Below, one piece after another: positions 8,299 to 30,629 of a stretch of 39,556 nucleotides of DNA (within the stretch, counting starts at the first letter, position 1; every line of letters begins with the position of its first letter). Location of the stretch: contig JAIROL010000288.1 in assembly GCA_031257565.1 (NCBI GenBank), positions 1 through 39,556 on the forward strand, in the 5' to 3' direction. Below the pieces are notes generated by a model that searched no databases, was not told where the DNA came from, and saw only the letters and a program-made list of their open reading frames with translations. The stretch comes from Tannerella sp. Lineage in GTDB: Bacteria > Bacteroidota > Bacteroidia > Bacteroidales > Tannerellaceae. A program made the translations under genes and the position numbers.

Positions 8299-9330
8299 TC
8301 AGGTACGCTTCTTCGGATTATCTTTGATTACTTTTTCCAGCTCGGTAAAAAACGATTCCTCTTGCTTTCCGATAGCCTTCAAATGGTCTCCGATTGTCTG
8401 ATAATCGACATTTTCCGACGACCGGTTTTTATAAATGCGGCCGGCCTCTGAAGCAAAAATTCTCCACTGATCGCCAATATCCGTCAGTCGTTGCGAAAAA
8501 TTGTTCAACTCGCTAATTCCGGTAATTTCCGACGCTTCCTGCAGGAAGGCCGCGTAAAGAAAACGAAATCCGGCGCCGCCCGTTCCGATTTCCTCCATCA
8601 TACGAACGAGCTGCGCCAGATGTAAAGCCGCTTTTTTCTCTCCATAAATCTTCGTAAATTCAGGAATTTTGTTGCCAAGATATTTAAAAGCGTTCACGCC
8701 TACAAAAGGCACAGGTCCCGGCTCATGAATCATGCGATAACAGTTTTTAAGAATGGCTCTCCGCACCAGTTTATCCATATCGGGTTCCTTTTCCGGCAAG
8801 GATTTTATCCAGTATAGCTTTCCCAGCGGCGGATAAACGCCTTTCGAAAAACGGGCGCGTAATAAATCGCGTGACGAAATCGTTACTTTCTCCATCGCGA
8901 CAGGGTCGCTAAGTAAGTAATTATCGCCTTCCTTACCGATAACGCAAACATTATGAGCATTAAAATGAAACCTGTACTCTATCGGCATATAAGGCAGAAA
9001 ATACATGCCTACGACGCTTCCGGCCGGGATACCTTTTTTCAGAAGGCTATCCAGTTTTTTAACGGCATTTTTCTTATTAAAGAATATCTTTTTATGGATT
9101 TTAAATCCAATTAAACGCGTTACGCGGGAAAAAATGATACCCGGCAAGGGACGAAAAGAAGTCACAGGAAATCCGGCCAGTTTGATAAACGGCAGATGTA
9201 CAAAATATAACGAAGCAGACAATCCGAATATCAACGGTTCGGAATAACTGTATCCGTAATAACGCAGCAGATTGGCTGTTACCCCATTCTCGCAATGCGC
9301 AGCCGTTCGGTGTTCAAAAGCTATTTCCAT
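8299..9330 (-). CDS. BtrH N-terminal domain / DUF4872 protein in the dar cluster
   Basis: A 343-residue cytoplasmic protein. The N-terminal half matches the BtrH-type acyltransferase/peptidase fold, with a nucleophile in AAHCENGVTANLLRYYGY (Cys13), a histidine in FHFNAHNVCVIG (His126) and an acid in YLLSDPVA (Asp142); BtrH itself transfers an acyl group from an acyl carrier protein in butirosin synthesis. The C-terminal half (about 180-343) is helical and corresponds to DUF4872. In this setting it may transfer or release an acyl chain made by the polyene/resorcinol pathway; that is inference. The start overlaps the preceding gene's end by 10 bp, so translation is probably coupled. Confidence 0.82.
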   Translation of the reverse strand: MEIAFEHRTAAHCENGVTANLLRYYGYSYSEPLIFGLSASLYFVHLPFIKLAGFPVTSFRPLPGIIFSRVTRLIGFKIHKKIFFNKKNAVKKLDSLLKKGIPAGSVVGMYFLPYMPIEYRFHFNAHNVCVIGKEGDNYLLSDPVAMEKVTISSRDLLRARFSKGVYPPLGKLYWIKSLPEKEPDMDKLVRRAILKNCYRMIHEPGPVPFVGVNAFKYLGNKIPEFTKIYGEKKAALHLAQLVRMMEEIGTGGAGFRFLYAAFLQEASEITGISELNNFSQRLTDIGDQWRIFASEAGRIYKNRSSENVDYQTIGDHLKAIGKQEESFFTELEKVIKDNPKKRT

Positions 9331-9728
9331 TCATCCGCACGTTTTAGTTCTTCGACCGAAATGCGTAATGCGTCCGCGTATTTCCGTAGCGTTTCATCAT
9401 CTAATTTCATAAATTCGTCATATTTCAGATGTTTCCGGATTTTTCTTTTAGGAATATCCGAATAGGAAGATAACATACCTACGTCCTGTAATGATTTTTT
9501 GATATGATAGGCCAACGGACTGACTTCTTTCGCCAGAACCTGTCTGCGTATTTCTTCGCACTGTTCGCGGATATCGTCCCAAACGGCGCCCAGCGCATCA
9601 TTCTTTACGCTCCATCCGTCGCTGACGACCGGCATATAATTGCCATTTTCATCGACAGCATACATTACATCGCGGATTACCTTATCTTTAAAATACTGTA
9701 AGTCCTGTGGAACCTCTTCTTTTTTCAT
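9321..9728 (-). CDS. Conserved small protein of the dar operon, function unknown
   Basis: A 135-residue soluble protein (MKKEEVPQD at the start, then MYAVDENGNYMPVVSDGWSV). It resembles proteins I recall beside darB and BtrH-type genes in Bacteroidota, but I know no function. The last 45 residues (SDIPKRKIRKHLKYDEFMKL, then ETLRKYADALRISVEELKR) look like the end of an XRE-type helix-turn-helix, so it could be a small regulator or an adaptor; that is a reading of the pattern only. It sits between darB (85 bp upstream) and the BtrH-type gene, which it overlaps by 10 bp. Confidence 0.78.
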   Translation of the reverse strand: MKKEEVPQDLQYFKDKVIRDVMYAVDENGNYMPVVSDGWSVKNDALGAVWDDIREQCEEIRRQVLAKEVSPLAYHIKKSLQDVGMLSSYSDIPKRKIRKHLKYDEFMKLDDETLRKYADALRISVEELKRADEWK

Positions 9729-9766
9729 TTGTGCTCTTATTTAATAATTTCCGGCGACTCATGAAA

Positions 9767-9778
9767 CCTGACGTCAGG
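9767..9778. promoter_or_regulatory. Perfect 12-bp palindrome between darB and the small gene
   Basis: CCTGACGTCAGG is a perfect dyad in the 85-bp gap after darB. It has no loop, so it is more likely a protein-binding site or chance than a terminator. Confidence 0.25.
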
Positions 9779-9813
9779 CTATCGCGAGCCGCATTCAAAA
9801 ATACGAAATCGCT

Positions 9814-10956
9814 TCAACAAACCGTAAGTAACGCATACGCATAAGAAAAACGAGCGCTTTCGGGCACCATCAGAAGTATCCTGTCGCCTTTTTTCGCACG
9901 TCCCGAACGGTTCAGCGCTTCCATCATCGCAAACGGTGAAACCGCCGCTACATTCCCGATCTCAGGAAGATTTATAAACCATTTATTTTTAGGTATATCA
10001 AAACCTAAAACGGCCAGTTCATCTTCAATCTTCTTTTCAAAATACATCGATGAAAGATGCGGCATAAACCAGTCCACGATAGTCGGGTCAAAATTCCGTT
10101 TAGCGACAATATCCTGCAAAAAGCGACCGCCAAGCTTTATAATATATTCATCCAGCAGTTTTGTATCCTGCTTCAAAGAAAAAAGTGAACGACTAAGCCA
10201 TTCCTCCTCCGGGAACTGCGCCCATCCTGCAAATGCTCCTTTTTCGTTCTTATCGCCTCCGGCATACATGCAAGTTTCTATCTCGTTTGCAAAAGATGTC
10301 AACTCTATCCATTCTATCCGATAAGACAAAGCGTTTTCCGCCGGTTTATTCTGCAACAATAAAGCCACGCTTCCGTCAGACAACATCCAGCGCAGAAACT
10401 CCTTTTCAAACGCCAATATAGGCCTGTCGCTCAACTTGTTAATCAATTCCGATTCTTTTTCGAAATAACGCGCCATCATCCATGCGGAAAAACGCTCGGA
10501 CGCCACGCATACGGCATTTTCCGAATCGCCTGTCAATGTCGAAAAATAAGCATATTTCAATGCCTGCATTCCGGTACAACACGATCCCGCAAACGAAACG
10601 ACCTCTGTATGCCTGCTGCCTTTCAATTCGCCGTGTACCATCACTCCGTGCGACGGTATCACCTGTTCAGGCGAAGCTGTTCCGCATGCAAGTAAATCAA
10701 TCCGATCCAACGTCAGTTGTTCATCCATCAAACCGTTAACCGCATTTGCGGCCATCCGGACGCTGGTATGCGTTACCTCTCCCGATTTATTCAGTGCATA
10801 ATAACGGCTTTTTATTCCGTTTTTCCCAAGAATTAACCGTTTGGCCAGCAATGATTTTTCATTAACCAATCCGATATACTGTTCCATTTCATCATTTCCG
10901 ACCGGTTCGTTCGGGAAAAATGCCGAAAAACGGTTTATATAAACAGAGTTATTCAT
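9814..10956 (-). CDS. darB: DarB-type ketosynthase (KAS III-like), dialkylresorcinol synthesis
   Basis: A 380-residue thiolase-fold condensing enzyme of the FabH/KAS III class. The catalytic triad is visible: a nucleophile in SFAGSCCTGMQALKYA (Cys126 or Cys127), His300 in DWFMPHLSSMYF and Asn335 in EIGNVAAVSPFAMMEAL. Known DarB enzymes join two beta-keto acyl thioesters and cyclise them to a cyclohexanedione, which DarA oxidises to the dialkylresorcinol; the resorcinol is esterified to an aryl-polyene acid in flexirubins. It lies downstream of darA, separated by two tandem leader minigenes whose last unit ends precisely at this gene's ATG. That 5' leader is nearly the same as the one before the SusC gene at 17211. 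Confidence 0.88.
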   Translation of the reverse strand: MNNSVYINRFSAFFPNEPVGNDEMEQYIGLVNEKSLLAKRLILGKNGIKSRYYALNKSGEVTHTSVRMAANAVNGLMDEQLTLDRIDLLACGTASPEQVIPSHGVMVHGELKGSRHTEVVSFAGSCCTGMQALKYAYFSTLTGDSENAVCVASERFSAWMMARYFEKESELINKLSDRPILAFEKEFLRWMLSDGSVALLLQNKPAENALSYRIEWIELTSFANEIETCMYAGGDKNEKGAFAGWAQFPEEEWLSRSLFSLKQDTKLLDEYIIKLGGRFLQDIVAKRNFDPTIVDWFMPHLSSMYFEKKIEDELAVLGFDIPKNKWFINLPEIGNVAAVSPFAMMEALNRSGRAKKGDRILLMVPESARFSYAYALLTVC

Positions 10957-10974
10957 GTGTACATTTTTTATTTT

Positions 10975-11079
10975 TTAACATTTCGGTAACATAGAACTCA
11001 CAGCATGTTCATAACTCTTTGGCGTTAGCCGTTTTTTTAACGCTTCGCTAAAAGACCGTTGGTTGCATGTTCGTTTCAT
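10975..11079 (-). CDS. Leader mini-ORF A2, 34 residues, before darB
   Basis: Starts MKRTCNQRSFSEALKKRL, passes through PKSYEHAVSSM and ends LPKC. It is basic and helical-looking; I do not recognise it. The frame stays open over the whole repeat unit and stops 19 nt before the darB ATG. It may be a translated upstream ORF that tunes darB, or a peptide in its own right. Translation is unproven. Confidence 0.45.
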   Translation of the reverse strand: MKRTCNQRSFSEALKKRLTPKSYEHAVSSMLPKC

Positions 11080-11103
11080 GAGTACATTTTTTATTTTTTA
11101 ACA

Positions 11104-11202
11104 CTAAGGAAACATAGAACTCACAGCATGTTCATAACTCTTTGGCGTTAGCCGTTTTTTTAACGCTTCGCTAAAAGACCGTTGGTTACATGTTCGTTTC
11201 AT
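11104..11202 (-). CDS. Leader mini-ORF A1, 32 residues, just after darA
   Basis: The first unit's mini-ORF begins 10 bp after the darA stop. Its first 30 residues are identical to those of mini-ORF A2; codon 5 differs only synonymously (TGT against TGC). It ends with Phe-Pro-stop where A2 has Leu-Pro-Lys-Cys. The reading frame and its ATG are kept in both copies. Confidence 0.45.
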   Translation of the reverse strand: MKRTCNQRSFSEALKKRLTPKSYEHAVSSMFP

Positions 11203-11211
11203 GTGATATAT

Positions 11212-12135
11212 TCAATTAAGTTCATAACACATCTCCCGCTCGGATCGTCGTAACGAGGTCCGTCGAAGCGGATAAGTCAGAAAGAAAAAAATCATTCCCA
11301 CCGGAGATACCACATACAACACAAAAAACAAATATGCACAGAAAACACGCAGACAGGGTTCCCGTTTCGGGTCATTATAAACCCCTTTCTTAATGATAAA
11401 TCTCGCCCAATGCCCCCATAGCCTGTAACCGTTCTTTTCTATAAAATAAACGGTTGACAAAAAGGTTACCGCATTTTTATCCATCAGTTTTTTCTGCATT
11501 CCGGAATAATCGTTCCGTTCCAGCGCATCTTTAATAATATGACCGTAAACCGCCGCATTATCTATCTCCGAAGGCGAAACTCCCGCGGCAGGAAGAAAAC
11601 GTGTCGCTTCCTTCTTATTATAAAAAAGCCAGCGGATAATCGTTATCACACTGACTAAATTCGGCGCTTTATCCTGCAGAGAAATAAAACCGACATATTT
11701 AGCCCCGATCTCACGGAGGTATTCACGGGTCTTTTGTTGCGTCATCGCCCACATATTGCGGCATCCCATAACCACAATAATATTACGCCCTTCCAGATAC
11801 TTCTGCATATCTTCCGACTGAAAAAACGAATGCAGGGGTATAGACCATGATAAATACCAGCTTTGTCCGGCAATAAGAACAATATCCGCATCCTCTACAT
11901 CACTCAGATCAATCGGCTTCAGCTTGCATGGTATACCCAGACGCGATTCGGGAAAAGCCTGAAAAAAAGCCGTCGCCGACCACGGAAACGGGTATGGTTC
12001 CTCCGGTACGATTTCTTTACGTACAACTTCACAACCCGCCTGCACAAGTGGTTCACATACTTTTTCCGCAATGCGGAGAGCCTGCCCCGTTTGGGTGTAA
12101 TAGAATAAAACTATTTTTTTTTGTTTTCCTTTCAT
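11212..12135 (-). CDS. darA: DarA-type dialkylresorcinol enzyme, flavodoxin-like
   Basis: A 307-residue protein whose N-terminus KKIVLFYYTQTGQALRIAE is a flavodoxin-like phosphate-binding loop, followed by the DarA-typical block PYPFPWSATAFFQAFPESRL and VLIAGQSWYLSWSIPLHSFF. Two hydrophobic segments near the C-terminus suggest membrane association. DarA proteins act with DarB and oxidise the cyclohexanedione to the aromatic resorcinol. The frame is open up to 12255, but a TAnnTTTG box at 12199-12206 would place the transcript start at about 12192, so ATG 12135 (MKGKQKK) is chosen. First gene of the dar operon. Confidence 0.87.
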   Translation of the reverse strand: MKGKQKKIVLFYYTQTGQALRIAEKVCEPLVQAGCEVVRKEIVPEEPYPFPWSATAFFQAFPESRLGIPCKLKPIDLSDVEDADIVLIAGQSWYLSWSIPLHSFFQSEDMQKYLEGRNIIVVMGCRNMWAMTQQKTREYLREIGAKYVGFISLQDKAPNLVSVITIIRWLFYNKKEATRFLPAAGVSPSEIDNAAVYGHIIKDALERNDYSGMQKKLMDKNAVTFLSTVYFIEKNGYRLWGHWARFIIKKGVYNDPKREPCLRVFCAYLFFVLYVVSPVGMIFFFLTYPLRRTSLRRSEREMCYELN

Positions 12136-12198
12136 ACTGCGATAATAATCAAAACATGCGCTTTTTATCTTTATGACAAAAAGGCAAAAAATTGGTTG

Positions 12199-12206
12199 CA
12201 AAGGTA
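12199..12206 (-). promoter_or_regulatory. -7 box of the dar operon
   Basis: TACCTTTG on the minus strand matches TAnnTTTG, 63 bp upstream of the darA ATG. No convincing -33 TTTG is present at the proper distance. Confidence 0.5.
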
Positions 12207-12255
12207 AGAATTTTTTCAATTTATCTATATGTAAAACATATAAGTATTTCTGCAA

Positions 12256-12605
12256 AAATTATACCGCAAGTATAAAGTAAATACGTAACATCAGCTAAAA
12301 ATATCTCTGCAAATTCCTTTTGTCGAAGTTGAAGATGCCAGCCTTACAAATAAATTGTTATGATAACATAGAATATTAGAATTTTTGTAACTCATCTGTA
12401 ATGTAAAACCTTTGTTTTTTGGCTTTGCCGAAAAACATGAGTAATAAAAAGCAGGCGAAACAATATCCGGACTTGTAATCCGGACGAAAAACATCTCGTC
12501 GGCCGCGTAACGGCGAATGGCGCGAAAAATACTCGGCTACCCGCTTCTCATCTTCTGTGCGGTCGTGTTCTACGAACATATACGTTCGCCACAGTATCAT
12601 AAAAG
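12256..12605. other. Gene-free stretch between the dar operon and the SusD terminator
   Basis: There is no convincing gene here. The left part is AT-rich. From about 12465 to 12595 the base composition turns GC-richer, with TCCGGA repeated on both sides of CTTGTAA (12469-12487), which could fold as a short hairpin. Minus-strand open frames of 67 and 91 residues cover the area, but their composition and lack of motifs make them doubtful; they could be part of a dispersed intergenic repeat. Confidence 0.4.
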
Positions 12606-12636
12606 ATAAGGAGGGAATTATATGTTCCCTCCTTAT
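12606..12636 (-). terminator. Strong terminator of the SusC/SusD operon
   Basis: ATAAGGAGGGAA (12606-12617) and TTCCCTCCTTAT (12625-12636) form a perfect 12-bp stem with a 7-nt loop, five bases past the SusD stop. On the minus strand a short CTTTTATG follows. It marks the end of the 22.6-12.6 kb transcription unit. Confidence 0.85.
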
Positions 12637-12641
12637 TTCTT

Positions 12642-14360
12642 TTATTCCCAACCCGGATTCTGAACCAGATTCGGATTCTTCATTCTTTCCGATTGCGGAA
12701 TTGGGAAAAAATACATCTTATCCTCCCACTGACGGTTCACAGTCTGACGCGTATAGGTATATGTTTCATCGCTATTCTTGGTAATCTTCATACGGGTGAC
12801 TGAGTTGAAATACTTACCGGCTTCTTTCCAGCGTCTTACATCCCAGAAACGATGTCCCTCGAATGCCAGTTCAACCATGCGTTCGTTGGTATACTGCTTC
12901 CAGAATTCATCATTGGATAGTCCGACAGAGAGTTCAGGCATATTCACTCCTGCACGGGTACGGATCACGTTCACTGCTTCTGTCGCCGACAAATCCAGAT
13001 TACCGGACTTGGCGTCGGCAGAACCCAGGTAGCGAAACACAGCCTCCGCATAATTCAGATAAAACTCGCCCAGACGATAAGTTATCCAGGAATGACGGCT
13101 TGTAGGGGTCTTATTTCCGCTGAAGTCAAGGTTTCCATCCAGTAACTTCTTCAAATAATAGCCGGTAGTAGTTGCGCCCGAAAGCGGTTCGGCATTAGCG
13201 CCGCCAAAATAAGTCTGGACAGGAAGCGTATTGTATATCGGCCACTTCGTATCGCCGTTTTTTGCAACGGTCATAGCAAAACGCGGGTCTCGGTCTGCAT
13301 ACGGATTGCTCTCATCGTATCCGCTACCAGCCTCGTTCCAGAACTTCCCGTTTTGTTTCATCTGGTAAGCGTCTACCAGATTTTGCGTCGGACAGTTCGG
13401 CGAAGTTCCGCCTCCCTCTACTCCGGCAGGTAAATTACGGGTTTCAAGATTGTTCAAAGCGCCGATACGACGGACGAATATAGCTTCCTTACTGGTCCAG
13501 TTATCTGTTCCCCAAATAGAAGTATAAGCCGTTAGCTGGTAACCATATTTAGCGCAGGAATCCAAAACCGCCTTATTAGCTTCAGCCGCTTTTTTCCATA
13601 AATCGTTATTATTTCCCGTATTGAACAAAGGGCTGGCAGCATACAATAACGCACGGGCTTTCAGCGCCAAAACGGCCAAACGGTTAGCGCGTCCCGTATC
13701 CGGCACATCAAGCCCCATCGAGCCTAAATTGGTATAATCGGCAGGAATTTTATTGACGATCGCATCACATTCCTGTACAATAAAATCGACAATCCGGCTA
13801 TACGATACACGGGGCAACGAATTCACTTCATCTACGCTTAAAGTGGTAGTAAAGAAAGGCGCATCGCCGTACTGACGTATTAAATTAAAGTAAAAATAAG
13901 CCCTCAGGAAGCGTACTTCATTCTCATAATTGAGATAACGAAACATTTGTGGCTGATAATCATCGTTAAACTGTAATTCGGGGAAAGTTAATCCCGGATA
14001 TTCCTCCAGGAAAAAATTACATGCCTGTATACCCGAGTAACTGGTTTCCCAAATCGTTTGCTTCGCATTTGCAGGACCCCATACGCCGTTGTAAAAATCA
14101 TGTATCTGATTAGAACTCAAGGCATGTTCGGCCTCGTCGCTTGCCGAAGCCAGCATCCCTCCGCCAAAAGAGCCATGGTCATATTCCAACTTCGAGTAAA
14201 TGTCGGTAACAAGTCCGCTAACATTACTAAAGTTTAATTCCATATAATCTTTGTCGTAATTAGTATGTTCTTTATACTCCATCTGATCGTTGCACGATGA
14301 AAATATAAGCGCGCACGCCATACCGGTTACCAATATATTAGATTTGAATTTCATTTTCAT
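12642..14360 (-). CDS. SusD/RagB-family glycan-binding lipoprotein
   Basis: A 572-residue outer-membrane lipoprotein with lipobox ACALIFSSC (Cys23). The fold signatures of SusD proteins are present: the TPR-side segment FLRAYFYFNLIRQYGDAPFF (around residue 150) and the C-terminal SusD_RagB block NERMVELAFEGHRFWDVRRW, ending in the usual NLVQNPGWE. It captures an extracellular ligand and acts as the lid of the SusC channel encoded 19 bp upstream. No glycoside hydrolase or other enzyme is adjacent, so the ligand cannot be guessed. Last gene of the operon, followed at once by a strong terminator. Confidence 0.95.
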   Translation of the reverse strand: MKMKFKSNILVTGMACALIFSSCNDQMEYKEHTNYDKDYMELNFSNVSGLVTDIYSKLEYDHGSFGGGMLASASDEAEHALSSNQIHDFYNGVWGPANAKQTIWETSYSGIQACNFFLEEYPGLTFPELQFNDDYQPQMFRYLNYENEVRFLRAYFYFNLIRQYGDAPFFTTTLSVDEVNSLPRVSYSRIVDFIVQECDAIVNKIPADYTNLGSMGLDVPDTGRANRLAVLALKARALLYAASPLFNTGNNNDLWKKAAEANKAVLDSCAKYGYQLTAYTSIWGTDNWTSKEAIFVRRIGALNNLETRNLPAGVEGGGTSPNCPTQNLVDAYQMKQNGKFWNEAGSGYDESNPYADRDPRFAMTVAKNGDTKWPIYNTLPVQTYFGGANAEPLSGATTTGYYLKKLLDGNLDFSGNKTPTSRHSWITYRLGEFYLNYAEAVFRYLGSADAKSGNLDLSATEAVNVIRTRAGVNMPELSVGLSNDEFWKQYTNERMVELAFEGHRFWDVRRWKEAGKYFNSVTRMKITKNSDETYTYTRQTVNRQWEDKMYFFPIPQSERMKNPNLVQNPGWE

Positions 14361-14379
14361 TCAGATTAAATTTAAAACA

Positions 14380-17211
14380 TTAAAATCCAAGTGTTAATCC
14401 CACGACTACGCTTCGGTTCAACGGAGTTGTCGCTCCATAAGATTCCGGATCGGCAATCTCGATTTTATCGAAACACAATAAGTCAACACCTCTTACATAC
14501 AGCTTTGCATTATCTATAAATCCGGTTTTCCGCATCGCTGTTTCGGGCAGGCGGTAATACAATTCAACATGACGTAACTTCAGGAACGAACGGTCTTCCA
14601 GCCAAATCGTATTAACCTTGAAGTTGTTATTACTGCTTTGAGAACTCAATGCCGGATATTTGGCATTTTGATTATCCGGCGTCCAACGATTTTCATAATA
14701 ATGTACGGAAATATTGGCGTTATTAACCAACGGGCGATAAAGGCTCTTTGTATCCAATATAGCCGAATAATTACCTGTTCCCTGGAACATCGCCGCGAGA
14801 CCCAATCCTTTATATTCGGCGCCCAGTTTAAATGAATAATATATTTCAGGGCAAAGCGTATTATATCCGATGGCAGTTACGTCATTATCATCAACCTTGC
14901 CGTCATTGTTTACGTCCTTATATTTTATATCGCCGGGTCTTACCTGATTAAATGCATGAGGTACGCTGCCTTCAATATCAGCCTGATCTTTAAAGAAGCC
15001 TTCGGCTATCAATCCGTACAGTTGTCCCACCGGTTTATTTGTACGGATCAGGTTATCGTAGGCTCTGGTTTCCTCGTATTGTTCTTTAATCTCATTCTTA
15101 TTCAACGTAAAAGTTGCTCCGATATTAAAATTAAAGTCGCCTGCCGTTTTGTAGTAATCGGCGCCTGCTTCAAAACCATAACTGTCTACGATACCGCCGT
15201 TTTCGTAGGGGGCGTCAAATCCAAGAACAGTAGAATATTTGCCGTTCGACAGTACCCAGATATTTTTTCGTTTTTGATAATAGCCGTCAATCGTCAGGTT
15301 TAGTCCTCCGAAAATCGCAGCGTCCAACCCGATATTATACTTTATAGCTTTCTCGTGCGTCGGATTCTGTGTTGCCAAACGGCTTAGTTTCCAGGCGCCG
15401 GCCGGATTGTAACTTCCATCCATCGGATATTGCGTACCGCTTACATATCTGTCTTCCCAATAACTTTCGATCCGGTTATCGTCATCATCGACAGGAATAT
15501 TATCGCGGTTGATAATACCGAATGATGCACGCAGTTTCATGAAATCAACAGCTGAATGACCGGACATAAAATCCTCTTTCGACAATACCCACGCAGCGGA
15601 TACAGTCGGCGAATACCCCCAACGACTGCTTGGCGCCAGTTTATTGGCGGCAGATGCGACCAGTGCAATATCTGCATAATAACGTTCTTTGTATCCGTAG
15701 TGCGCATAGAGCGAAAGGTTTTGACGATACCAGGTATTGTCTATATCTCGGATATCCCTATACTCATAATCCCATTTGAATTGTGAATAAATACTGTGAT
15801 CTCCGAATGTATTCCGATAGTTCAAGCCAATATCAAAGTTAAACGCCCGTGTCCATGAATCCAATTCGGAACTTGTACCTAATGCAGAATTCGTACCTCC
15901 CGTATACTTTTGCAAGTTATCCATATTAGGAGCGCCGTTCAACCATTCGGTTACGGCATAACTGCCATACGAATAGGTACGCGAATGGTTCTCAAGGTAA
16001 GTAGCCACATTATCATAAGCCATCCTGAAACTACCGCCTAATCCGGGCAATATGATCGACAAGTCTTGCTTTAACGCCATATCTGCAAACAACGAACGTC
16101 TGTGCATCTTTGTATAACCGGCGTCCTGCGATTGAGCCACCGGGTTAAGCGTTCCGTTCCAGGTTGAATTACCCGCCCAGATACCATCCTGATTTTTAAT
16201 TGGAAAAGCGGCGGCAGGAATTGTATAAATCATATCCCACAAGTTCGCAACATCGCCCGGTCGACTCATTTCGGCCAGTGTTCCCAGTATTTTCAACTCC
16301 AGTTTTGTCGTTGGCGTCAGGTCTATATCCAGATTTGTTCTCAGGTTGGATCTGGAGAATTTATCCTGCGTAGAATAGCCGTCTTTCGCGTTTTCCGATT
16401 TAATAAAACCTGAGTTGTTATGCAAGTCTGCCATTGCATAATAGCGGAAAGCCTTACCGCCTCCACGAAAACTGACGTTATAAATGTTGGTTGCGCCGGA
16501 ATTTTTAAATGCCTCCTCTATCCAGTCTATATTCGGATATAAAGAAGGATAGGTTCCTGATTTAAATGCCTGTAATTCGGCTTCCGAATATCTGACTGCC
16601 TGTCCATCGTTGACCAGCGCTTCATTCATCGCATTCCCATACGTAAAAGCGTCTACAAATTCAGGACGGCGTACCTGCCGGTTAAACGCATGGTCGTAAG
16701 AGAATTTCACCTCTCTCGATTCGTATTTGCCTCGTCGGGTAACAATATTAATAGCTCCATTAGCGCCTTTGTATCCATAAAGAGCCGTAGCAGCCGCATC
16801 TTTCAATACCGTAACCGATTCGACCTCTTCGGGCGAAACCAATCGAATATCCCGTTCAATGCCGTCTACCAGAATAAGCGGCGCATTACCCGAGTTTTGC
16901 AATGTTTGCAATCCTCTTACATAAAATGTATTATTGTAATCAAAATAGTTGCCGTTACCCTGAAGTGCGGTAACCCCCAGTACATTCCCAAACATAGAAC
17001 TACCGATATCTCTTGAAGAACGCTTATTCAGTTCTTCGCCGGAAACCGTATAGGTAGAAGACGTCGTTTCTTCCAGATTCTGTATAATTCCGTTTCCTGT
17101 ATTTACAACTTGACCGGCACGATTGTCCGGGATGTTTCCATCTTGGGCAAATCCTTGCAATCCCACACGGGCAAGAAGCGCCAGAATTAATAATATTTTT
17201 TTATTTTTCAT
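14380..17211 (-). CDS. SusC/RagA TonB-dependent transporter lacking the N-terminal regulatory domain
   Basis: A 943-residue outer-membrane barrel with signal peptide (cleaved near FAQDG, residue 23). The plug domain starts almost at once: SSTYTVSGEELNKRSS (about 52-67), then NTFYVRGLQTLQNSGNAPLILVDGIERDI with the SusC signature VLKDAAATALYGYKGANGAINI near residue 140. The CarboxypepD_reg-like domain that normally precedes the plug is absent, as is a clear TonB-box stretch, so it is about 100 residues shorter than its neighbour. The C-terminal strand ends in Phe (SVVVGLTLGF). Its ATG is the end of leader array B, the same leader type as before darB. Confidence 0.93.
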   Translation of the reverse strand: MKNKKILLILALLARVGLQGFAQDGNIPDNRAGQVVNTGNGIIQNLEETTSSTYTVSGEELNKRSSRDIGSSMFGNVLGVTALQGNGNYFDYNNTFYVRGLQTLQNSGNAPLILVDGIERDIRLVSPEEVESVTVLKDAAATALYGYKGANGAINIVTRRGKYESREVKFSYDHAFNRQVRRPEFVDAFTYGNAMNEALVNDGQAVRYSEAELQAFKSGTYPSLYPNIDWIEEAFKNSGATNIYNVSFRGGGKAFRYYAMADLHNNSGFIKSENAKDGYSTQDKFSRSNLRTNLDIDLTPTTKLELKILGTLAEMSRPGDVANLWDMIYTIPAAAFPIKNQDGIWAGNSTWNGTLNPVAQSQDAGYTKMHRRSLFADMALKQDLSIILPGLGGSFRMAYDNVATYLENHSRTYSYGSYAVTEWLNGAPNMDNLQKYTGGTNSALGTSSELDSWTRAFNFDIGLNYRNTFGDHSIYSQFKWDYEYRDIRDIDNTWYRQNLSLYAHYGYKERYYADIALVASAANKLAPSSRWGYSPTVSAAWVLSKEDFMSGHSAVDFMKLRASFGIINRDNIPVDDDDNRIESYWEDRYVSGTQYPMDGSYNPAGAWKLSRLATQNPTHEKAIKYNIGLDAAIFGGLNLTIDGYYQKRKNIWVLSNGKYSTVLGFDAPYENGGIVDSYGFEAGADYYKTAGDFNFNIGATFTLNKNEIKEQYEETRAYDNLIRTNKPVGQLYGLIAEGFFKDQADIEGSVPHAFNQVRPGDIKYKDVNNDGKVDDNDVTAIGYNTLCPEIYYSFKLGAEYKGLGLAAMFQGTGNYSAILDTKSLYRPLVNNANISVHYYENRWTPDNQNAKYPALSSQSSNNNFKVNTIWLEDRSFLKLRHVELYYRLPETAMRKTGFIDNAKLYVRGVDLLCFDKIEIADPESYGATTPLNRSVVVGLTLGF

Positions 17212-17263
17212 GTGTACATTTTTTATTTTTTAACATTTCGGTAACATGGAACTCACAGCATGT

Positions 17264-17305
17264 TCATAACTCTTTGGCGCAAGCCGTTTTGCATGTTCGT
17301 TTCAT
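17264..17305 (-). CDS. Leader mini-ORF B2, 13 residues
   Basis: MKRTCKTACAKEL then TGA. The first five residues equal those of the array A peptides; the 29-bp deletion then shifts the frame. Translation is unproven, and the short length argues for a regulatory upstream ORF, or a decayed one, more than a functional peptide. Confidence 0.3.
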   Translation of the reverse strand: MKRTCKTACAKEL

Positions 17306-17357
17306 GTGTACATTTTTTATTTTTTAACATTTCGGTAACATGGAACTCACAGCATGT

Positions 17358-17399
17358 TCATAACTCTTTGGCGCAAGCCGTTTTGCATGTTCGTTTCAT
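17358..17399 (-). CDS. Leader mini-ORF B1, 13 residues
   Basis: Identical in sequence to mini-ORF B2 and located 44 bp after the SusD stop codon. It is the first ATG of array B. Confidence 0.3.
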   Translation of the reverse strand: MKRTCKTACAKEL

Positions 17400-17443
17400 A
17401 CGAATATTTATTTTTATATTAAAGTAGCAGGACGGGCTTCAAA

Positions 17444-19378
17444 TTACCACCCGGGATTTTGTACCAGTCCATATCCTTTGTTTATCTCTCCCAGCGGAAA
17501 TGGAGACAGATACCATTTGGGGTCAAATCCATTTGTCCACCACACGCGAGTAGGACTACTGATTCTTTTCTTTTCATACCGAAAGGCAGGCCAGGGAACG
17601 CCTGCATCCTTGTCGGCGCCGAACCATTGTCCCTCTTTATCGGTACGGGTAATCATAAGCATATACAGCGGTTGTTCAAATTTCGACTTCATCTTGTAAC
17701 GGATCATGTCGAAGAAACGGCTATCTTCCATTCCCAATTCGCAAGCGCGCTCGCGTAATATTTCTGCCAGCAAAGCATCCTTATCCGTCGTCAGGTTCTT
17801 GCCGGGATTAGATTCAACCAGGCCTTTCATTCCTACGCGTGCACGGATAATATCAACTTGCCTGACGGCTTCCGTCAACTGTCCTTTCTGACAAAGCGCT
17901 TCGGCATAATTTAAGTATACTTCCGCCAAGCGGAGATAGCACCAGTGCACGTCTTCGCGAGTTGAATTATCGCCCAGAAAATATTTCTGTAACGTATATC
18001 CCGTAGCGTAGCGTGCATGTTCAGTGGTTTGCGCTTGCTTGGAGTCGTAGCCGCCAACCCATATTTCATATACATTTCCGCTCATATTGCCTGTAGTCCA
18101 GTCTAACGATTTCGGCAAGCCGTTTACAATCGCAGTTTCATACAAACGCGGATCACGCGTTAAGACGACTCCGTCCGCAGGATTATTCACCCGCTCGATA
18201 AACATTTCATCAAGCAGCCCCTCCTGTTCGGCTTTGTTCCAATCGAAAGGGGTACCGTCTGCCCACGGAAACATTTCCACATAATCATGAGTCGGATTAT
18301 ATCCGCGACCATTGGCGTTCTGTAGCTGCCACCATGAGTATGTACCGGAAGTATGACTGTCGCTGGTCAGCACGCGTACCGAATGTAATACTTCCGTACT
18401 CGTCAATCTGTAATAGGCTTTACGAAAAGCCAAACGATAATCCTCCGGACGTGTTCCGGCGGCTTGCTCCAGCGCAAATTGCTGCCGGGCGCTCAATTCT
18501 CTGAAAAAGTCCTCGCAGGCCGTCAGGCAACGATCCCACAGTTCGGACTTGTATCCGCCATACCACACATTGTGATTGGTAGCAGCCTCTCCTTCCATGT
18601 AAGGCTGGTTATCATTAAATAGAGGAGAAGCGGCGAAAAGTAAAATAGACGTTTTTAATCCCATTGCGCCTGCTTTTGTCCAGCGACCCGCTTCATTGGC
18701 CGAATTGCCGACCTGCCAGGGGAGAACCGCCGCAGCTTCATCCAGTAGCTCCGTCATAAAATTCACTGTTTCTTCCACTGTGCCGCGAGGCATTTCATAC
18801 GTAGCATCTGTTCCTGAGAAAGAGCCTTTAAGAATAGGGATGCCGCCGTAATGACGGAACATATCCCAATAGCGAGAAGCGATCAAACATTTGGCTTCCG
18901 CTTTCAATCGTTCCTTTTCCGATGCATCCATGCCGGGTACCTCCTCTATTTTTTCAAGAAACAACCATGCATAGCGTACAGCTTCCCACACGTTAGAGCG
19001 GGTATAGTCAAATTTGTCGGCACGGATTCCATAACCGGCAGTGTGCGTTCCCGAATAATAGTTGCCATACATTGAAAAACCCGTCCATGTGGTCACCCAA
19101 AGATCGGACAAAGCTTCAAACTTCCCAATCCAGTAACTATGCGTGTAAGGAGGGTTACTACTGTTGCTATACTGCAATCCGTAGTATTGGAGCGCATAAA
19201 TACCGGTAAGAAACTGACGGGCATATTCCGCATTATTGAAAACAGTATCCATTGTTACCGATCCGCCGGGAGCTTTTTCCAGAAAATCATTTCCAAACCT
19301 GATGTCGTCGACGCACGAGCTAACTGAAAAACCAATTACCGCAACAAGGCCGATCAACCGCTTATTTATTTCTTTCAT
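17444..19378 (-). CDS. SusD/RagB-family lipoprotein
   Basis: A 644-residue lipoprotein with lipobox VIGFSVSSC (Cys22). SusD signatures include LIASRYWDMFRHYGGIPIL (around 165-185), CYLRLAEVYLNYAEALCQKG (near 480) and the C-terminal RACELGMEDSRFFDMIRYKM, ending GLVQNPGW. At 644 residues it is somewhat longer than typical SusD proteins, with inserted loops in the middle. It pairs with the SusC gene 18 bp upstream and is followed by leader array B and a second SusC/SusD pair. Confidence 0.95.
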   Translation of the reverse strand: MKEINKRLIGLVAVIGFSVSSCVDDIRFGNDFLEKAPGGSVTMDTVFNNAEYARQFLTGIYALQYYGLQYSNSSNPPYTHSYWIGKFEALSDLWVTTWTGFSMYGNYYSGTHTAGYGIRADKFDYTRSNVWEAVRYAWLFLEKIEEVPGMDASEKERLKAEAKCLIASRYWDMFRHYGGIPILKGSFSGTDATYEMPRGTVEETVNFMTELLDEAAAVLPWQVGNSANEAGRWTKAGAMGLKTSILLFAASPLFNDNQPYMEGEAATNHNVWYGGYKSELWDRCLTACEDFFRELSARQQFALEQAAGTRPEDYRLAFRKAYYRLTSTEVLHSVRVLTSDSHTSGTYSWWQLQNANGRGYNPTHDYVEMFPWADGTPFDWNKAEQEGLLDEMFIERVNNPADGVVLTRDPRLYETAIVNGLPKSLDWTTGNMSGNVYEIWVGGYDSKQAQTTEHARYATGYTLQKYFLGDNSTREDVHWCYLRLAEVYLNYAEALCQKGQLTEAVRQVDIIRARVGMKGLVESNPGKNLTTDKDALLAEILRERACELGMEDSRFFDMIRYKMKSKFEQPLYMLMITRTDKEGQWFGADKDAGVPWPAFRYEKKRISSPTRVWWTNGFDPKWYLSPFPLGEINKGYGLVQNPGW

Positions 19379-28946: not shown

Positions 28947-29141
28947 ATGACATGCACAAAAGTAGAAAAAATTTCACAAGCCATCACTCCTTTTGGAGGA
29001 ATAAATTTTATCAATGAAGAATTTTCCCGTTGCGGGTTAGCGAAAATGATTGACAGTGAGTTAGTAATACATAGTAACTTTATAAACTCTAATGATGCAA
29101 TATTGGCTCCGTTTTCCAATTACGACAATCTTCTCCATTAT
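28947..29141 (+). pseudogene. Possible IS1380-type transposase N-terminal fragment
   Basis: The first about 60 codons (MTCTKVEKISQAITPFGGIN, then INEEFSRCGLAKMIDSEL) resemble the N-terminus of IS1380-family transposases, where ITPFGG and a nearby FID are typical. The similarity fades after about residue 45 and the rest of the frame runs antisense through the Rpn gene, so this is a stump. No terminal repeats were found. Confidence 0.45.
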
Positions 29142-29411
29142 GTTGTTAAGGAAACACTTTTAAGACCGGGGTTATATTCGGAAGAGCCAACAGGGCCTAA
29201 AGGATGTGCAACCAGATATTCCCGGTGGAAATTCAAAGATGCAAGTACGGATTATCGAGCTGATCCATTGTGGCTGATGAGTATTCCGTATTTTGACAGA
29301 GCAATCGTAACTGCCAAAACACATCTTTTCCGCGAAATGCGCTCCTGCATCCACAAACCGGTCTTTTTCACCAGTGACTTCCGACTTCCGGTTTGGGCTG
29401 TGTTCTCCGGG
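29142..29411. other. No recognisable gene; scrambled junction
   Basis: Between the transposase stump and the Rpn gene end, open frames on both strands are short or shadow others. One plus-strand frame holds GLKDVQPDIPGGNSKMQVRI followed by stops, which looks like a piece of a real protein that I cannot name. The stretch is probably rearrangement debris. Confidence 0.35.
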
Positions 29412-30479
29412 TTACTGCAACTTGCGGATTTCGTCTGCCGTCAGGCCGGTCAGTTCAGTGACGTCTTCAAGCGACATCCCCTTTTTCAGACAGGCGGCAG
29501 CCACTTTCTCTATTCCTTTCTCCATCCCCTGTTTGATTCCTTTCTCAATTCCTTGTTCCATTCCCTGTTCGATTCCTTGTTCGATTCCTTTCCTGATTCC
29601 CTGTTCTATTCCTTTCCTGATTCCATGTTCCATCCCCTGTTCGATTCCTTTCCTGATTCCTTGTTCCATCCCCTGTTCGATTCCTTGCCTGATTCCTTTC
29701 CTGATTCCTTGTTCCATCCCCTGTTCAATTCCTTGCCTGATTCCTTGTTCCATCCCTGTCCGTTCCGCGTCGGACAGGACGCTACGTTCGGTAAGAATAG
29801 CGTCCCGATACTTGTCGTACGTAAACAGCTGTTTCTTCGTATAGGCGCCCGCTTCCAGGTACTTGACGGCTTCGCGCGTTTCGTCGTTTTCCAGCAGTTC
29901 CTGCGGGACTTCTTCCGTGCTCTCGTTTATCTCTGTCAGGAAACGCATCCACAGTTCGTGAAGCTTCTTCTCCGCACGGTTTTGAGGTACGAACTTCTTC
30001 AGTTCGATAAACACGAACTCCAGGCCGTTGATCTGCTTTTGGGTATCCTTGATATTGACGATTTTGTAGTGATGATAGTACTCGAACTTCATTTCGGGAG
30101 ATTTTTCAAAGTTCTCGTTAACGAAGTTCAGCGCGTAAACAGGCTGCAGCAGTTCGTATTTTTCCGCCCTGTCCAATTGCCGTACGTAGGCTTTCGAGGC
30201 GTTGAGCAGTACGCGGCTCCTGAAACTTTCCGTCCAGTACATCTGCATCTCCACGATGAACTGCCTGCCGATGGCGTCCGTGCAGCGCACGTCCACGATC
30301 GAGTTGCGCAGTATTTCCAGTTCGGGAAGCAGTTCGCCCGTATCATACTCGATGCTGACCACACGCTGCGATTCGTCCAGAGGCAACATGCTGTTGATAA
30401 GGCTTATGCAGAGGTTTTTGTGCTCGCCGAAGACCCGCTTGAAGGTCAAATCGTTTTTCGGATCAAGATAGTATGCCAT
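29412..30479 (-). CDS. Rpn-family PD-(D/E)XK nuclease / putative transposase with tetrapeptide-repeat tail
   Basis: A 355-residue protein of the Rpn (recombination-promoting nuclease) family. The PD-(D/E)XK core is visible: IVDVRCTD (Asp63) and FIVEMQMYW (Glu77, Gln79), preceded by the family start YYLDPKNDLTFKRVFGE. Residues 242-325 are 21 copies of a tetrapeptide G-(I/M)-(E/R/K)-(Q/K/H), likely a long charged helix. A short C-terminal segment follows (KGMSLEDVTELTGLTADEI). Rpn proteins cut DNA and raise RecA-independent recombination; copies in Bacteroidota are numerous. It has its own promoter and lies beside a transposase stump. Confidence 0.9.
   Translation of the reverse strand: MAYYLDPKNDLTFKRVFGEHKNLCISLINSMLPLDESQRVVSIEYDTGELLPELEILRNSIVDVRCTDAIGRQFIVEMQMYWTESFRSRVLLNASKAYVRQLDRAEKYELLQPVYALNFVNENFEKSPEMKFEYYHHYKIVNIKDTQKQINGLEFVFIELKKFVPQNRAEKKLHELWMRFLTEINESTEEVPQELLENDETREAVKYLEAGAYTKKQLFTYDKYRDAILTERSVLSDAERTGMEQGIRQGIEQGMEQGIRKGIRQGIEQGMEQGIRKGIEQGMEHGIRKGIEQGIRKGIEQGIEQGMEQGIEKGIKQGMEKGIEKVAAACLKKGMSLEDVTELTGLTADEIRKLQ
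29505..29756 (-). repeat. 21 imperfect 12-bp repeats encoding tetrapeptides
   Basis: A 252-bp stretch within the Rpn gene built from 12-bp units such as ATTCCTTTCCTG (plus strand). Several higher-order blocks recur, for example the code for GIRKGIEQGMEQ. Because units are multiples of 3, copy-number change would alter the linker length without breaking the frame. Confidence 0.9.
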
Positions 30480-30504
30480 TGCTTTTCTTTTTTTGTTTCT
30501 GCGA

Positions 30505-30535
30505 CAAAGTTAATAAACGGATATGAATCCTGCAA
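30505..30535 (-). promoter_or_regulatory. Promoter of the Rpn gene
   Basis: On the minus strand TTG (30535-30533), 20 nt, then TAACTTTG (30512-30505), matching the Bacteroidota promoter; ATG 30479 follows 26 bp later. Confidence 0.65.
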
Positions 30536-30629
30536 TATCAGGCAGCGAAAAAGGGGCCACTCAGAGAGGACGTCGCTGAAATCCATTAACGACCGATTTG
30601 GGTTAAATAAAATCTGCAGACGGTAGTTT

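Follow-up and report, generated by a model that had tools for sequence, protein, structure and literature searches.

The region directly ahead of darB in a Tannerella sp. contig raises the question of what a tandemly repeated sequence is doing between two genes, with its last unit ending at a start codon. It could be a leader that belongs to this one gene or a copy of something that occurs elsewhere. The analysis started from the whole stretch of 39,556 nucleotides, here called the window. The features of the locus are as follows.

9814..10956, minus strand: darB, encoding an StlD/DarB family beta-ketosynthase (NCBIfam), with the array at its start codon
10957..11079, minus strand: second 123-bp unit, abutting the darB ATG; ATGAAACGAACATG...GTACAC, mini-ORF of 34 residues
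11080..11202, minus strand: upstream (first) 123-bp unit; ATGAAACGAACATG...GTACTC, mini-ORF of 32 residues
11212..12255, minus strand: upstream ORF, called darA in the earlier note, with a sub-threshold flavodoxin match

Tandem Repeats Finder reported 2.0 copies of the 123-bp unit at 10952-11203, with 95% matches and no indels. Both units carry ATGAAACGAACATG at the start and an A-rich stretch followed by GTACNC at the end, after which comes the next ATG; for the second unit this is the darB start codon (10956-10954, minus strand). The coordinates and the repeat search therefore confirm what the earlier note had described, namely two units running from ATG to ATG and ending exactly at the darB start, and its two mini-ORFs of 32 and 34 residues are present in the sequence. 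Each unit also brings its own A-rich pre-start region, and the real gene follows directly. The darB label is supported by the StlD/DarB model NF005293 (515.7 bits, cut-off 450); the DarB model NF053539 scored 529.4 bits, below its cut-off of 550. The label darA did not find such support: the ORF at 11212..12255 gave no NCBIfam match at E ≤ 1e-10, and its flavodoxin match lies below the cut-off (E 0.0032). The stop of this ORF is located about 10 bases ahead of the darB array, and the true start of the upstream gene probably lies inside the ORF. A 29-base core of the repeat has four matches in the window and none in 100 shuffles, which excludes chance. Core matches and Tandem Repeats Finder (100% matches) revealed a second array of the same repeat family, in a shorter form.

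14380..17211, minus strand: SusC/RagA family outer membrane protein gene (profile match), with the second array at its start
17212..17305, minus strand: second 94-bp unit of the second array, abutting the ATG of the SusC-like gene
17306..17399, minus strand: first 94-bp unit of the second array (short form)

A search of window positions 9000-18500 against Rfam 15 gave nothing at the gathering score; BSnc120 reached 24.5 bits of the 114 needed over the second array (E 0.05). The window also contains a minisatellite at 29504-29766, built on a 12-base basis with periods of 12 to 84 and up to 20 copies. It lies inside the ORF 28947-30626, the product of which has no Pfam match at E ≤ 0.01.

The repeat is not a local duplication: about 190 copies of the family are scattered over the genome to which the window belongs. 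Patterns for the two ends gave 189 right-end and 193 left-end matches in this genome, while the same patterns written backward gave 0 and 1 as controls. The core matched 123 times at up to three mismatches (67 forward, 56 reverse) and a variant core 37 times. For a closer view, 124 stretches chosen around matches were read, covering 337,524 of the 4,465,361 bases. They hold 126 clusters, 119 of which have a right end, a count that takes in truncated copies and four spurious ones; at least nine bases beyond the right end are available for 118. One right end was found in 72 of the 119 clusters, two in 43, three in three and six in one. From these clusters 177 units were cut out. The full length is present in 143, of which 96 have the short and 47 the long form, with 130 distinct sequences among them; unit lengths are mostly 93-94 and 122-123 bp. 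The short (94 bp) and the long (123 bp) form differ by one 29-bp module. This module can itself be tandem, occurring three times in L153 (G000:C17:8520, minus) and twice in L089 (G000:C284:27837). Two further units, L049 (G000:C150:118) and L070 (G000:C228:30624), carry an extra insert in the middle, ACTAACGAGTGATAATTATTAAAGG..., and represent a third form of the element.

Variation among the units is concentrated in 18 polymorphic columns; elsewhere, over 76 columns, a unit carries 0.36 private substitutions on average. In the short form (96 units), 27 of 36 pairs of variable sites show all four combinations. The bodies of units from one array differ almost as much as those from different arrays (5.18 differences within, 5.90 between; 5.91 after permutation, sd 0.34). 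The last variable bases, in contrast, are common to the units of one array (0.20 differences within, 0.70 between, 0.69 permuted), so that independent copies inserted one after the other do not explain everything. The pattern reads like local doubling or serial insertion, two routes that these data do not separate, followed by exchange between copies.

The three bases after the right end are ATG in 104 of the 118 arrays, ATA in eight and others in six; four of the six (C167, C17:2867, C215:31289 and C85:2365) are weak pattern matches, judged spurious and kept in the count. In 82 of the 118 arrays that very ATG or GTG opens a sense ORF of at least 60 codons, and in 80 one of at least 100 codons; five arrays are cut by a contig end. 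The earlier note had named random intergenic places, both orientations and no reference to start codons as the marks of an ordinary dispersed repeat, and this is not the distribution found, as these 82 arrays stand at ORF starts in sense orientation. Genes that bear an array include priA (read in part), panC, dut, cmk, dusB and a ribulokinase gene. In the relative G034, which is the nearest by PriA (83% identical over the 487 residues compared), a similar test classified 1232 of 22,938 ATGs as start-like. Roughly one array in four does not stand at the start of an ORF of at least 60 codons. Most of these have no clear gene start at their border, although in several an ORF begins within 150 bases; in some, long frames run across the empty site, and whether these are genes is uncertain. 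At C106:26808 the copy clearly interrupts a gene, entering its frame at CAC^ATGAAA; the piece behind it corresponds to positions 165-220 of the 221 of PF01555 (DNA methylase). Therefore, the site is read as a sequence and not as a start codon.

This sequence can be narrowed down. ATGAAA follows the right end in 96 of the 118 arrays, and it is also the commonest start context measured here. The base before it is C in 26 of the 35 single arrays with a native-looking left flank, while the figure for start-like ATGs of G034 is 91 of 479. The border between units also reads C^ATGAAA, the preferred target, so that each copy can renew the site, which would explain the tandem arrays. In G034, CATGAAA occurs 18 times at starts, 19 times in noncoding and 139 times in coding sequence. 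Selection alone was considered as the cause of the position and set aside: if insertions into coding sequence were simply lost, about half of the arrays would remain at starts, and 82 of 109 were seen there (118 minus the five cut by contig ends and the four judged spurious). This points to some extra preference or to missed small genes.

A comparison with G034 gives a view of the sites before insertion. The genome of this relative has no core match, and the 0.63 Mb of it that was read contains no right end and one left-end-like 14-mer. Both flanks were found in G034 for six loci. At three of them (priA, panC and C106:10596) the element has gone in cleanly, immediately ahead of the ATG. The two priA flanks can be aligned without a base gained or lost: in the relative the native leader is followed by ATGAAA, and the unit has been added exactly between the two. 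C106:10596 agrees with this, and so does panC, where a few leader bases beside the border have diverged. Neither a duplication nor a deletion of target bases was seen at the three clean sites. The copies at the other three loci are older, degenerate or truncated at the 5' end. C99 has an old copy ahead of a fresh one, C81 has an old tail in its left flank, and at C228:43042 only the last ~25 bases remain, in place of ~73 bases of leader. Target duplication was also looked for by comparing left flanks with right tails in 49 single arrays, and was rejected, as the agreement exceeded that of shuffles only at position -2 (28/49, p 0.008); the agreement there may be due to old tails, which form the end of about a dozen left flanks. 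Four copies at gene starts consist of the right end only (C205, C228, C50, C98). Truncation at the 5' end was considered as a sign of reverse transcription and discarded, because the comparison with G034 at C228 fits plain deletion.

The units are rich in start codons, with up to seven ATGs each. In all 143 full-length units, for which an ATG at the start was a condition of selection, the first ATG closes in frame. The resulting 33 different peptides fall into eight length classes (13 residues in 89 units, 4 in 27, 32 in nine, 34 in six, other lengths in 12), the commonest being MKRTCKTACAKEL in 61 units. Frame shifts between them come from the 29-bp module and from one-base indels, and a conserved peptide was looked for across the 143 units and not found. 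The last mini-ORF is more regular. It consists of three codons, ATG TAC NCA TGA, and overlaps the next ATG by four bases in 95 of the 118 arrays (128 of the 143 units, taking ATGAAA as the next bases). At gene starts, 72 of 82 arrays have an ATG at -8 with its stop overlapping the ATG of the gene. This ATG stands directly behind the A-rich stretch, and base -3 of the gene is C in 128 of 143 units. The abstract of PMC6847099 describes Bacteroidetes mRNAs as having no Shine-Dalgarno sites, favouring A at -3 and avoiding AUG near the start. The up to seven ATGs before housekeeping genes found here bear on this picture of translation. From the sequence, ribosome entry at -8 with hand-over to the gene appears plausible. 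A relay of stops and starts through the whole unit was considered as a general rule and is not borne out. In the typed consensus of the 122-bp form all six ATG frames are coupled (matched by 1 of 3000 shuffles by number and by 80 by fraction), and in that of the 93-bp form four of five (3%); the 94- and 123-bp forms do not exceed their shuffles in stop-start relays. Among the real units, 21 of 143 show a strict and 77 of 143 a loose relay.

Relatives of the repeat were searched for in other genomes. At up to three mismatches the 29-base core is absent from 36 genomes of the same genus and 24 of the same order. In a collection of named genomes, exact core matches were confined to two MAGs from a single sample, Cd354_bin6 and bin9, which hold seven and one copies, respectively, at up to three mismatches; these few copies could be stray contigs from a population of the window's organism. 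An order-wide search gave matches at E ≤ 0.01 in 37 of 393 genomes, the window's own included. Two of these genomes, G312 and G390, were followed; most of the other matches are short pieces of the A-rich tail. G312, from another family, has a copy of 78% identity, with the left body as in the unit of the window's genome and the tail as in both. The ATGAAA at which it ends opens only 15 codons; a frame of 472 codons starts 83 bases further on, where by eye a second, degenerate unit may precede it. G390, from a third family, has six copies in the 338 kb read of its 3.8-Mb genome (loci L276-L294), five of them complete (89-95 bp) and one split between two stretches, and in addition one weak partial copy. 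Each of the six has, at its end, the ATGAAA that opens an ORF of at least 194 codons; the weak partial copy has no such ORF. The G390 copies start with ATGAAA and have TTCCATGTGACC and the A-rich tail in common with the unit of the window's genome, from which their opening is otherwise different. They have a long two-level hairpin near one border (DNA fold z -3.56), with one compensatory change from C-G to A-T seen by eye among the six copies. In these six copies there is no C before the ATG at the target and no ATG at -8, where ATT is found, so that the four-base overlap is missing.

A candidate for the moving enzyme was also looked for. In the window's genome G000 (94% complete), the Y1 transposase domain PF01797 has no match at E ≤ 0.001; a control search found it in five of 14 known genomes. 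No element end was found in the loci of the 30 tyrosine-recombinase matches of this genome, and a weak motif match among them (L259) was judged not to be an element. Nine tyrosine-recombinase domain matches are located within ~8 kb at G000:C217:41104-49250 (L240, L241, L243, L245, L246, L249, L256, L257, L261) and form a dense run of integrase genes. The unit itself is no more stable than shuffles, as DNA or as RNA (DNA fold z of the two strands: +0.94 and +1.21 in the short form, -0.45 and -0.97 in the long one). A search for carriage by phages or plasmids gave no match to four patterns in the viral contig collection, nor in plasmids or phages.

Taken together, we favour the reading of the repeat as a non-autonomous mobile element that targets start codons and brings its own A-rich translation start region, with a probability of about 0.62; its mobility is deduced from one genome and one relative. 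The element would enter at C^ATGAAA in one orientation, with target bases neither duplicated nor deleted, as at the three loci compared with the relative. As its left end is ATGAAA and its right end comes to lie directly before the old ATG, both borders would again be landing sites, and arrays may grow head to tail through them. Insertions at start codons would survive because the coding sequence stays untouched and the end of the element takes over the translation start. The last ~25 bases, A-rich and unstructured, would become the new translation start region, and the last mini-ORF could hand the ribosome on through its four-base overlap with the ATG of the gene. Copies may then be mixed by gene conversion, as the pattern of variants suggests. 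A site-specific recombinase or an HUH-type single-strand enzyme is the candidate for the movement, and either fits the lack of target duplication.

Among the other explanations, an unlikely one is that the repeat is a domesticated common leader, spread because it puts many genes under one translational control, with the mini-ORFs as an upstream relay open to modulation by a regulator or by starvation. The almost invariant leader at 82 gene starts, the ATG at -8 in 72 of these and the six coupled frames of the 122-bp consensus would suit it, and the earlier idea of an amplifiable translational leader is possible as such. However, ten products examined, nine from array-bearing genes, have no evident common pathway, the core is absent from the 36 genomes of the same genus, the peptides are not conserved, coupling in the commonest 94-bp form is at chance, and some copies have no ORF start nearby. 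Also improbable is a spread mainly via ectopic recombination at the short homology CATGAAA together with gene conversion, without a dedicated enzyme. It draws on the 27 of 36 site pairs, which show that copies have recombined, on the locus-specific tails with mixed bodies and on borders that offer six to seven bases of homology. About 190 precise events would be a great deal to ask of so little homology, and conversion needs a resident copy, while the clean sites show insertions where G034 has none.

A portable promoter, kept for starting transcription of the next gene, appears very improbable. The -7 promoter motif of Bacteroidota is TAnnTTTG, and it occurs in 0 of the 143 units; moreover, the native leader is kept upstream at the clean sites. 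The position of the repeat directly before genes would agree with a promoter, and in mycobacteria, according to an excerpt of PMC4213456, regX3 can be expressed from the MIRUs that lie between senX3 and regX3. We give hardly any credit to a family of small-peptide genes with members duplicated before host genes, the second idea of the earlier note. The closed frames of all 143 units and the frequency of MKRTCKTACAKEL speak for it; yet a length of 32 or 34 residues occurs in only 15 units, the module and the one-base indels shift the frame across 33 peptides, and the G390 relatives open differently. The earlier picture of a small gene duplicated only locally, as a tandem leader of darB, has next to nothing left beyond the 95% identity of the two units, as these carry different variant sets, bodies within arrays differ almost as between arrays, and the dispersed copies refute it.

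The reading as a mobile element aimed at start codons finally has to be compared with known systems; few mobile elements aim at start codons, to our knowledge. REP/RAYT and IS200/IS605-derived repeats depend on Y1 HUH transposases, which insert directionally beside a short fixed target without target duplication. The repeat resembles them in its direction, its short fixed target and its lack of target duplication, and the relative in G390 in its strong hairpin. It differs by the lack of a subterminal hairpin in the unit of the window's genome and of a Y1 transposase there, and the absence of PF01797 led us to reject identity with REP/RAYT. Ordinary MITEs and Correia-type repeats are short, non-autonomous, dispersed and often located upstream of genes, all of which applies here as well. 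Unlike these, the repeat has clean sites without target duplication and inserts exactly at the start codon in one orientation. A literature search, covering titles and the openings of abstracts with small reach into subscription papers, gave no start-codon repeat outside mycobacteria.

The closest system is that of the mycobacterial MIRUs. The earlier note knew of no described element of this kind, and here it has to be corrected: an excerpt of PMC12548453, citing Supply et al. (1997), describes MIRUs as short repeats, single or in tandem, which are apparently mobile and insert at start codons. According to the same excerpt, an internal ORF of the MIRU overlaps the gene start at a spacing of -4 and expression is little disturbed (PMC12548453). 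The present repeat is likewise short and interspersed, single or in direct tandem, at start codons and in sense orientation. The coupled ORF is a less clear point of comparison: the last mini-ORF overlaps the next ATG in 95 of 118 arrays, but it is tiny, with three codons, and not general. The repeat differs in its target C^ATGAAA and in the G390 relative, which has a long hairpin and no overlap. By this analogy the repeat would work like MIRUs and share their way of life; it is set beside them by description and is not filed as a member. A wider picture, which we regard as rather unlikely, is that of a start-codon-specific mobile superfamily in this order (probably Bacteroidales), unrelated to MIRUs, with ATGAAA as landing site and safe harbour, the target rebuilt at both borders, and a common relay leader of more than 80 genes that could give new translational control. 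A second case outside mycobacteria, with ~190 copies and relatives in two other families, would show the start codon to be a recurrent safe harbour, in a system where target rule, empty sites and translational cost are measurable.
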